A DNA stretch of 45,527 nt from the NCBI GenBank assembly GCA_028684815.1, contig JAQUFE010000016.1:1-45527 (forward strand), read 5' to 3'. Under the pieces are notes generated by a model. That model ran no database searches, was not told the origin of the DNA, and saw nothing but the letters and a program-made list of their open reading frames with translations. The position numbers and the translations under genes are program-made. Positions 112 to 44,030 of the stretch are shown here, one piece after another. The stretch comes from Sulfurimonas sp. (GTDB lineage: Bacteria > Campylobacterota > Campylobacteria > Campylobacterales > Sulfurimonadaceae). Every line of letters starts with the position of its first letter. Within the stretch, counting starts at the first letter, position 1.

Positions 112-209
112 GGGGGGCATGCGATCCTGGTGGACGCCACAGGCTTCAACCCTGATGGAGGTTTTGCTGACAAAGCCTCGGGAGGTTCGATTCCTTCGCC
201 TTCTCACCA
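112..209 (+). tRNA. selC: tRNA-Sec (anticodon UCA)
   Basis: Selenocysteine tRNA that reads UGA with SelB. The anticodon stem CAGG/CCTG encloses loop CTTCAAC with UCA at 146-148. A long variable arm (about 155-179) precedes the T arm GGAGG-TTCGATT-CCTTC (181-197), and CCA is encoded at 207-209. The length of about 98 nt and the long extra arm fit selC. The weak point is the acceptor stem: the six G at 112-117 pair with the 3' strand including G-T wobbles, but the inner two positions mismatch, so the exact 5' end may be off by a base or two. It is convergent with selD, whose stop codon lies 3 bp away, and selD needs this tRNA. Confidence 0.9.
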
Positions 210-42417: not shown

Positions 42418-42499
42418 TTTTTGAAGTTAATTGTGCCTAAAGTTTTGGCGAAGCTTCTGTAGTATATTAATTGAAGGTTAAGATGCAAAGATGAAAAAA
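42418..42499 (-). repeat. tRNA-linked foldback, copy C (diverged)
   Basis: Last and most decayed of three tandem copies beyond the final tRNA-Val. Keeps the left arm (TTGTGCCTAAAGTTTTGGCGAAG) but the central hairpin and right arm have drifted (AGATGCAAAGATGAAAAAA). Confidence 0.6.
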
Positions 42500-42502
42500 T
42501 TG

Positions 42503-42583
42503 TTTTTGAATTAGTTGTGCCTAAAGTTTTGGCGAAGCATACTATAGTATGTGAGCAGAAAGTTTCGGTGCGAATAATCAAAA
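42503..42583 (-). repeat. tRNA-linked foldback, copy B
   Basis: Left arm GTGCCTAAAGTTTTGGC pairs with right arm GCAGAAAGTTTCGGTGC at 14 of 17 positions. The apical hairpin is CATAC-TATA-GTATG, where other copies have TGTAC/GTACA, so two base pairs have changed on both sides. Confidence 0.75.
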
Positions 42584-42586
42584 TTG

Positions 42587-42669
42587 TTTTTGAATTAGTT
42601 GTGCTTAAAGCTTTGGCGAAGTGTACTTTCGTACATGAGTCAAAGTTTTGAGTGCAAATAATCAAAAAA
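42587..42669 (-). repeat. tRNA-linked foldback, copy A, abutting tRNA-Val
   Basis: Arms GTGCTTAAAGCTTTGGC and GTCAAAGTTTTGAGTGC pair at all 17 positions (with wobbles). Apical hairpin TGTAC-TTTC-GTACA. Outer T6/A6 and GAATTAGTT/AATAATC segments extend the stem. Begins right after the encoded CCA of the tRNA. Confidence 0.8.
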
Positions 42670-42745
42670 TGGTGGGCATTACTGGACTCGAACCAGTGAC
42701 ATCTACCTTGTAAGGGTAGCGCTCTACCAACTGAGCTAAACGCCC
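42670..42745 (-). tRNA. tRNA-Val (UAC), second copy
   Basis: Complete cloverleaf: acceptor starting GGGCG, D arm TTAGCTCAGTTGGTAGAGCG, anticodon loop CTTACAA (UAC), T arm CTGGTTCGAGTCCAG, CCA encoded. Identical to the other tRNA-Val in this operon. Last tRNA of the operon. Confidence 0.97.
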
Positions 42746-42775
42746 ATCTTTAAACTATTTACGACACCAGAATAA

Positions 42776-42852
42776 TGGCGACCCCTAAAGGATTTGAACC
42801 TCTGTCTCTACCATGAAGTGATAGCGTCCTTGGCCAACTAGACGAAAGGGTC
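42776..42852 (-). tRNA. tRNA-Glu (UUC)
   Basis: Acceptor starting GACCCTT, anticodon stem CTATC/GGTAG around ACTTCAT (UUC), T arm AGAGGTTCAAATCCTTT, discriminator G and encoded CCA. Only tRNA of the operon without a foldback directly at its 3' end. Confidence 0.96.
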
Positions 42853-42908
42853 ACTTTCATAAACATAAGGCTTATAGGTTTTTGTTTTGAAAAAGATTTC
42901 AAAACTTG

Positions 42909-42972
42909 TTTTTTAAATTAGTTGTGCTGAAGTTTTGACATAATATCAAATTTTTAGTACAAATAATAAAAA
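42909..42972 (-). repeat. tRNA-linked foldback, copy D (short remnant)
   Basis: Keeps the ends TTTTTTAAATTAGTTGTGCTG and GTACAAATAATAAAAA, but the apical hairpin is lost. 64 bp. Lies between tRNA-Asp and tRNA-Glu. Confidence 0.6.
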
Positions 42973-42987
42973 TATATCTTGTAGTTA

Positions 42988-43040
42988 ATACTAAAATCGA
43001 ACTAGTTCGATGAGCCTTACGCTGAGTAAAACCTAGTGTT
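42988..43040. repeat. Second spacer repeat, copy 1 (three-stem foldback)
   Basis: Contains the perfect palindrome TCGAACTAGTTCGA and a second hairpin TTAC-GCTGA-GTAA, closed by an outer ACTA/TAGT pairing. A near-identical copy lies at 43438-43490. Function unknown. Confidence 0.65.
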
Positions 43041-43087
43041 AACGTAGTGAAACGGACTTTGTTCGTTTCGCGTACATATAATGTACA

Positions 43088-43164
43088 TGGCGCGGTGGAC
43101 GAGACTCGAACTCGCGACCCCCTGCGTGACAGGCAGGTATTCTAACCAACTGAACTACCACCGC
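43088..43164 (-). tRNA. tRNA-Asp (GUC), second copy
   Basis: Acceptor starting GCGGTGG, anticodon stem CCTGC/GCAGG around CTGTCAC (GUC), T arm GCGAGTTCGAGTCTCGT, discriminator G, CCA encoded. Identical to the tRNA-Asp at 43.6 kb. Confidence 0.97.
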
Positions 43165-43171
43165 TTTTTTT

Positions 43172-43208
43172 CCTTGATTAAAACAAAAATCAAGAATTTA
43201 TCAATAAT
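43172..43208. repeat. CTTGATT hairpin, copy 1
   Basis: CTTGATT-AAAACAAA-AATCAAG followed by AATTTATCAAT. Repeated at 43831-43866, each just on the 3'-coordinate side of a tRNA spacer (upstream of a tRNA in the transcript). Confidence 0.6.
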
Positions 43209-43212
43209 ATTG

Positions 43213-43296
43213 TTTTTTGAATTAGTTGTGCTGAAGTTTTTGGCGAAGTGTACGAAAGTACATGAGCTAAAAGCTGAAGTGCAAATAATCAAAAAA
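43213..43296 (-). repeat. tRNA-linked foldback, copy E, abutting tRNA-Val
   Basis: Arms GTGCTGAAGTTTTTGGC and GCTAAAAGCTGAAGTGC pair at 15 of 17 positions; apical hairpin TGTAC-GAAA-GTACA. Compared with copy A several pairs differ on both arms (A-T to G-C, C-G to T-A). Abuts the tRNA-Val CCA. Confidence 0.8.
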
Positions 43297-43372
43297 TGGT
43301 GGGCATTACTGGACTCGAACCAGTGACATCTACCTTGTAAGGGTAGCGCTCTACCAACTGAGCTAAACGCCC
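43297..43372 (-). tRNA. tRNA-Val (UAC), first copy
   Basis: Same sequence as the tRNA-Val at 42.7 kb, complete with encoded CCA and anticodon loop CTTACAA. The Asp-Val pair appears twice in the operon, suggesting segmental duplication. Confidence 0.97.
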
Positions 43373-43437
43373 ATTTTTTAAACAATATTTTAAGATATCA
43401 AAGAACTAAATTGTCACATTTTTTAAACAAGTTGTTA

Positions 43438-43490
43438 CTACTAAAATCGAACAAGTTCGATAAGCCTTACGCTGAGTAAAACTTAGTATT
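43438..43490. repeat. Second spacer repeat, copy 2
   Basis: Near copy of the element at 42988: CTAAAATCGAACAAGTTCGA then TAAGCCTTACGCTGAGTAAA, ending ACTTAGTATT. The palindrome centre changes CTAG to CAAG. Confidence 0.65.
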
Positions 43491-43494
43491 GTTG

Positions 43495-43579
43495 TTTTTT
43501 TGAATTAGTTGTGCTTAAAGCTTTGGCGAAGTGTACTGTAGTACATGAGTCAAAGTTTTGAGTGCAAATAATCAAAAAA
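43495..43579 (-). repeat. tRNA-linked foldback, copy F, abutting tRNA-Asp
   Basis: Arms identical to copy A (17 of 17 paired), loop changed: TGTAC-TGTA-GTACA. Abuts the tRNA-Asp CCA. Confidence 0.8.
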
Positions 43580-43656
43580 TGGCGCGGTGGACGAGACTCG
43601 AACTCGCGACCCCCTGCGTGACAGGCAGGTATTCTAACCAACTGAACTACCACCGC
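43580..43656 (-). tRNA. tRNA-Asp (GUC), first copy
   Basis: Identical to the tRNA-Asp at 43.1 kb: acceptor GCGGTGG, anticodon loop CTGTCAC, CCA encoded. Confidence 0.97.
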
Positions 43657-43830
43657 TAATTTATTCCTTACTCGGCGTCAAAAATCCACTCACATACTAG
43701 AGTATGCTTCGTAAATTTTTTCCTTGATTAAGAAAAAATTTAAATTATGCTTTTTGCTTTACTCGGCTCTGTAACCTTTCACTCATTCGTCACATAGTAA
43801 AACTATGCTCCTCACTCACTCAAGAACCTG

Positions 43831-43866
43831 CCTTGATTAAAACAAAAATCAAGAATTTATCAATAT
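43831..43866. repeat. CTTGATT hairpin, copy 2
   Basis: Second copy of CTTGATT-AAAACAAA-AATCAAG plus AATTTATCAAT. The preceding 170 bp (43657-43830) hold no gene, only small foldbacks such as CATACTAGAGTATG and CATAGTAAAACTATG. Confidence 0.6.
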
Positions 43867-43869
43867 TTG

Positions 43870-43954
43870 TTTTTTGAATTAGTTGTGCTGAAGTTTTTAG
43901 TGAAGTGTACAAATAGTACATGAACTAAAACCTGAAGTGCAAATAATCAAAAAA
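43870..43954 (-). repeat. tRNA-linked foldback, copy G, abutting tRNA-Lys
   Basis: Arms GTGCTGAAGTTTTTAGT and ACTAAAACCTGAAGTGC pair at 14 of 17 positions; apical hairpin TGTAC-AAATA-GTACA. The innermost pair is T-A where copy E has C-G. Abuts the tRNA-Lys CCA. Confidence 0.8.
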
Positions 43955-44030
43955 TGGTGTCCTGTGATGGATTCGAACCATCGGCCACATCATTAAAAGT
44001 GACGTGCTCTACCAGCTGAGCTAACAAGAC
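43955..44030 (-). tRNA. tRNA-Lys (UUU)
   Basis: Acceptor GTCTTGT, D arm TTAGCTCAGCTGGTAGAGCA, anticodon loop CTTTTAA (UUU), T arm GATGGTTCGAATCCATC, discriminator A, CCA encoded. First tRNA after the operon promoter. Confidence 0.97.

Follow-up and report, generated by a model that had tools for sequence, protein, structure and literature searches.

REP/BIME sequences, the repeats of the REP-RAYT system, are short imperfect extragenic palindromes that often lie behind genes, form strand-specific hairpins and are patchily distributed. They reach hundreds of copies, and the cognate RAYT gene is flanked by the repeat. In Escherichia coli, rtT repeats directly follow tyrT; each unit contains part of the tRNA 3′ end and no long hairpin. 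Casposon MITEs are tRNA-targeting elements. The TRE retrotransposons of Dictyostelium insert beside tRNA genes in a fixed relation (PMC5006619). The attC sites of integrons lie at the 3′ end of a gene and fold on their bottom strand, and their structure is kept while the sequence drifts (PMC2727003).

We analyzed a window of 45,527 nt from Sulfurimonas sp. (contig JAQUFE010000016.1, positions 1 to 45,527). Its tRNA cluster carries an 83-nt structured repeat with a 35-bp hairpin, hereafter the element or type I (Table 1). It is a short imperfect palindrome like REP/BIME, likewise extragenic, patchy, often behind genes and strand-specific in its hairpin. However, it has only 1-9 copies per genome, sits exactly at the tRNA CCA with its 35-bp stem and does not flank the Y1/RAYT genes of the genus. 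It shares with rtT the place directly behind a tRNA gene, but it is a long hairpin and has no Rfam match: an Rfam scan of the window returned only tRNAs, and the element matched no known family above the gathering threshold. As with the tRNA-targeting MITEs and the Dictyostelium TRE elements, it lies beside tRNA genes in a fixed relation; it differs from these in having no established target duplication or linked reverse transcriptase and in occurring also behind 5S rRNA and protein genes. We found no description of it in the open-access literature, where absence is weak evidence.

Table 1. Type I copies and neighboring features in the window
Feature	Positions	Strand	Remarks
Copy A (decayed; farthest from tRNA)	42418-42498	+	27 bits with R1, E 0.08; fold z -0.16
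Copy B (tandem, between A and C)	42503-42584	+	88.8 bits; -24.4 kcal/mol, z -3.9
Copy C (intact; abuts CCA of tRNA-Val 42670-42745)	42587-42668	+	101.4 bits; -36.3 kcal/mol, + strand
Copy D (short; apex lost; separated from tRNA-Asp by type IV)	42910-42972	+	38.5 bits
Copy E (intact; abuts CCA of tRNA-Val 43297-43372)	43214-43295	+	98.7 bits
Copy F (intact; abuts CCA of tRNA-Asp 43580-43656)	43497-43578	+	102.6 bits; z -8.9
Copy G (intact; abuts CCA of tRNA-Lys 43955-44030)	43871-43953	+	94.6 bits
tRNA cluster Lys-Asp-Val-Asp-Glu-Val	42670-44030	-	ARAGORN; Rfam RF00005
Type III element just 5′ of tRNA-Asp; orientation opposite to type I	43657-43737	-	fold -21.4 vs -8.8 kcal/mol on the other strand; R3 match 46 bits
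Second, longer type III-like unit (weak)	43738-43862	-	fold -26.6 kcal/mol, z -1.8; repeats
Type IV structured element directly after CCA of tRNA-Asp (43088-43164), before copy D	42976-43087	+	fold -32.7, z -3.5
Type IV remnant displaced by copy F	43431-43490	+	90% identity to 42981-43040; fuller at same place in G323

An earlier note on this DNA had described seven foldback copies, and all of them were present. Four (C, E, F and G) start 0-1 nt past an encoded CCA in the ARAGORN annotation, and three (C, B and A) are in tandem after the last tRNA, both as the note had said. The fold was real, although the paired region was 35 bp rather than arms of 17 nt. Among the copies listed there as pairing (A, B, E, F and G), A proved to be largely decayed (27 bits, fold z = -0.2). 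Five copies in the window were good, namely B, C, E, F and G, which are 82-83-nt hairpins with 35 pairs. The orthologue of copy D in the sister genome G323 was intact and adjoined the CCA. A tRNA-Sec gene was also seen at the start of the window (112-205).

Two-sided pair changes had been reported as well, and they were recovered in 8 of 35 pairs among the five copies, compared with 3.6 ± 1.3 in shuffles (0/500) and 0-2 in slid registers. A covariance model was built first from the five window copies and then from 60 matches. The larger alignment, which was fitted to the structure and in which one of the 60 rows was the complementary strand, held 258 both-sided changes; shuffles gave 69.5 ± 6.6 and slid registers no more than 56. 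The covariation stood far above shuffles in this larger set too, and it is decisive for the fold. Selection on a folded nucleic acid, as first proposed, is strongly supported.

What the earlier note missed was the strand. The stable fold was on the + strand, antisense to the tRNAs. Copy F reached -36.8 kcal/mol (z = -8.9) on this strand and -15.0 kcal/mol (z = -3.3) on the tRNA-sense strand; for copies C and F alike the values were about -36 kcal/mol antisense versus -15 sense. The antisense strand was the more stable one in 125 of 126 distinct tRNA-adjacent elements, with a mean difference of 13.6 kcal/mol. Of 49 sequences, 48 had U.G and G.U in two adjacent columns, and 44 had G.U in a third. 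In the remaining columns, wobbles at variable pairs were divided 73:12 between the antisense and the sense strand (p 8e-12; 57:15 in a second alignment), counts that come from related sequences, so that p-values overstate the evidence. The GC skew was 0.28 in the element and 0.00 in the flanking 25 nt. Because the spacer beside the element has no skew, regional mutation bias is not the cause of the wobble bias, and a mutational origin of the asymmetry was rejected. DNA folding parameters ranked the strands as RNA parameters did, which makes an RNA form and a single-stranded DNA form indistinguishable. Inside the hairpin, the tandem UG/GU and the GAA/GA bases were strictly conserved, and the outer stems were variable (TTTTTTG, GTTTAGTTG, CGTTTGGCC). 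The conserved fold is formed on the gene-antisense strand only.

These results bear on the suggestion that the repeat is a hairpin for pre-tRNA 3′ processing, acting in the tRNA transcript. The base of the hairpin does lie at the mature CCA end, and the sense strand also folds better than shuffles, with z about -3. However, the wobble pairs are kept on the wrong strand, opposite to the pre-tRNA; the same junction is hairpin-free in many species; some species have most of their cluster tRNAs without the element; and the related type III lies 5′ of tRNAs in the opposite orientation. These bacteria are not known to have RNase E. The processing reading is weakened by these observations and seems very improbable.

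By covariance-model search, the element was found in 48 of 397 Campylobacterota genomes (15 genera) and in 41 of 99 genomes of relatives. When 84,980 species were scanned for an exact pattern, 46 stretches matched, and every one came from a record under the name Sulfurimonas, Helicobacteraceae, Campylobacterales or Campylobacterota. Presence was patchy, even between sister species, and families f4, f6, f8 and f18 had the element in rRNA spacers.

Among 184 distinct matches, 135 lay 0-4 nt past a tRNA end (nine at -1), on the opposite strand and in one orientation. The preceding tRNAs were Val (62), Asp (37), Ile (16), Lys (15) and Ala (5), rRNA spacers included. The few same-strand matches were either these palindromes in their weaker complementary reading or type III elements, and several of the non-tRNA matches were cut by contig ends. 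The gene order of Lys, Asp, Val and Glu in Sulfurimonas tRNA clusters differed among species. Sulfurimonas rRNA spacers had either tRNA-Ile or tRNA-Ala and then a type I element; in G012 the elements behind the two tRNAs were almost identical.

In its own genome, type I was confined to the tRNA cluster, but relatives carry it after 5S rRNA and protein genes. Some copies followed 5S rRNA at a distance of about 8-12 nt, and one was between 16S and tRNA-Ile. In 17 of 19 further loci, the side of the element that faces a tRNA elsewhere faced the 3′ end of a protein gene. Reading of the translations identified, among these genes, porB, guaA, guaB and a carboxynorspermidine-synthase-like gene. A wider and weaker set, with mechanical ORF calls, followed the same orientation in 27 of 35 cases, 20 of these within 40 nt. 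The orientation rule at protein genes is not absolute. As for terminator features, the tRNA copies were followed by an A-run and not a U tract, and some guaA copies were inside an A-run/T-run stem.

Sites with and without the element could be compared directly. The same tRNA junction measured 8-30 nt, with no hairpin, in many species and was filled by the element in others. At the Asp>Val junction, the native trailer (TTTTAGTTT..) was kept whole behind the inserted element. Element and trailer both begin with T runs, which is compatible with a target duplication of 1-5 nt; with T runs on both sides, no target-site duplication was established at the junctions examined. Between G323 and the window, orthologous copies had wholly different inner stems between identical flanks. 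Within this genome, copies F and C were 98% identical and copies E and G 92%, though they lie behind different tRNAs. The nearest relative of a copy was behind the same tRNA in 43 of 55 cases, and behind the same tRNA in another genome in 27 of 55.

Stacking was also observed. In two independent places (tRNA-Asp in the window and tRNA-Lys in G323), type IV lay between the CCA and type I, and the displaced type I copies had lost their apex. In a third place, type I was in front of type IV, and the type IV in the window was without its first hairpin. At the guaA 3′ ends of Arcobacter-like genomes (family f9), three alternative hairpins replaced each other and most ends bore one of them; at the guaA locus of G485, two hairpins were stacked. 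In G457, a 27-nt segment from the 3′ end of guaA, stop codon included, occurred again behind a truncated element, with a second element after it. Position, orientation, presence or absence, stacking and exchange at the gene end are thus direct observations. Of the earlier proposals, a palindromic mobile element of tRNA spacers came closest: the CCA boundary is filled in some cases and empty in others, and stacking and exchange occur there. The link to tRNAs is real without being exclusive.

Two other readings are serious alternatives. The main rival is a one-way barrier, in which the hairpin would fold in antisense transcripts that run into the 3′ side of a highly expressed gene and lead to an RNase III cut or a polymerase stall, whereas the sense transcript, with A.C mismatches, would pass. 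A barrier would explain the antisense-only fold, the fixed place at the 3′ ends of tRNA, 5S rRNA and housekeeping genes, the decay of displaced copies and the hairpins borne by most guaA ends in Arcobacter-like genomes. But the conserved tandem UG/GU and GAA/GA exceed the needs of a duplex substrate, and the presence is patchy even among sister species. Moreover, the sequence 5′ to the hairpin, read on the folding strand, had no conserved promoter-like signal, only A+T-richness with no positioned motif, and a promoter in front of an antisense RNA was rejected for this reason. We regard the barrier as rather unlikely but worth keeping in view.

The second alternative does without mobility of the element. 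Homologous recombination and gene conversion among tRNA units, of the same or of different genomes, would have distributed and exchanged an old element that is present behind Ile/Ala tRNAs in rRNA spacers. It would fit the identity of tRNA-Val and tRNA-Asp copies, the replacement of inner stems as blocks in orthologous copies, the frequent nearest relatives behind the same tRNA, the rRNA-spacer copies in the four families named above and the guaA end of G457 that was duplicated together with a second element. It leaves unexplained why the right-hand boundary falls exactly at the native trailer at several independent sites, why the unrelated types I and IV share a boundary and why copies lie behind 5S rRNA and protein genes. 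Recombination without mobility also seems unlikely, slightly more so than the barrier.

Type III shares with type I the core GCGRAGC-apex-YGUGAGC and a three-stem architecture. The type III of the window has the GAA/GA loop of type I, a stem of about 10 bp and a 6-bp apex. In Sulfurimonas tRNA clusters its orientation is opposite to that of type I, just 5′ of the tRNA, and the folded strand of either type has its 3′ end toward the tRNA gene. The type III model gave dispersed matches in other families. Many units related to type III were seen outside the window, both in tRNA spacers of Sulfurimonas and in further families of Campylobacterota. Type IV has the form GCGAAACGAAC...GTCCGTTTCACTACGTTAACACTAGG...ATCGAACTAGTTCGAT; it lies directly behind the CCA, and after other tRNAs in G323 and G012. 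A broader idea is that these hairpins belong to a selfish RNA or single-stranded DNA class of Campylobacterota, in which unrelated families would compete, by way of a recombination or copying enzyme, for the site behind a mature RNA 3′ end (tRNA CCA, 5S, mRNA), the folded strand always being antisense. This is speculative and we consider it improbable.

Searches for an enzyme gave no linked candidate. A reverse transcriptase (RVT_1) was present in 11 of 60 genomes of the genus and absent from the genome studied here; being in a minority of genomes and uncorrelated with the element, it was rejected as mobilizer. Y1_Tnp was found in 24 of 60 genomes, but 18 Y1 loci had no flanking element match at E<=1 and an inverted-repeat search around RAYT genes gave nothing useful; the genes are present but unlinked, and a Y1/RAYT transposase was rejected. 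An integron integrase gene, intI, lies at 47687-48631 of the same contig, 3.7 kb away and just outside the window (TIGR02249, 414 bits), convergent with ileS, and in G359 intI is 67 nt from the guaA element. A second intI was seen at the start of contig C19.

An integrase was an attractive candidate: attC, too, folds on its bottom strand at the end of a gene (PMC2727003), and intI is nearby. Like attC, the element folds on the strand antisense to the upstream gene at its 3′ end, as in the 125 of 126 cases above, and it could be an attC-like site served by the Sulfurimonas integrase. However, it has no RYYYAAC/GTTRRRY ends, no conserved GTT/AAC core and no cassette array, and its outer stem varies freely. 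The cassette arrays of G012 and G046 have classical attC sites with TAAC...GTTA ends, a different repeat, and the element models do not find the true attC sites of these integrons. The intI beside ileS has no adjoining element, and intI was above the cut-off in only 21 of 60 genomes. The integrase/attC system was rejected as mobilizer, and the attC-like reading is the least probable of those weighed here.

The explanation we prefer, tentatively and at somewhat less than even confidence, is that the element is a small non-autonomous, strand-specific unit inserted or copied exactly at gene 3′ ends by a factor acting in trans. The tandem U.G/G.U pairs, the GAA/GA loop and the capped apex would form a recognition hairpin, on the antisense strand only and near the gene 3′ end. 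The putative factor would recognize the folded strand, as RNA or single-stranded DNA, and join it behind the mature gene end, which in tRNA genes would mean right after the CCA and ahead of the first trailer base. Older copies might be pushed away from the gene end by new ones, and gene conversion might reshuffle the inner stems. We infer that the copies are made by transposition-like insertion, not recombination, and that a dedicated protein exists. In favor of this reading are the antisense fold with its wobble bias, the covariation, the uniform place and orientation behind tRNAs, the native trailer kept whole at a filled site, the layering of types I and IV, and near-identical copies behind different tRNAs. 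Against insertion are the low copy number (1-9) and the lack of a linked transposase, reverse transcriptase or integrase, and likewise the exceptions to the orientation rule at protein genes and the fact that a target-site duplication was not established. The 27 of 55 nearest relatives behind the same tRNA in other genomes also count against it, as this is what vertical descent predicts.

This is a rare case in which sequence alone reveals a fold as well as the strand that folds, and here it is not the strand that would have been expected. Should the element be mobile, these bacteria would have insertion machinery accurate to the base at gene ends, and we know of no other such system. Should it be functional, it would protect stable RNA genes from antisense transcription in one direction only.
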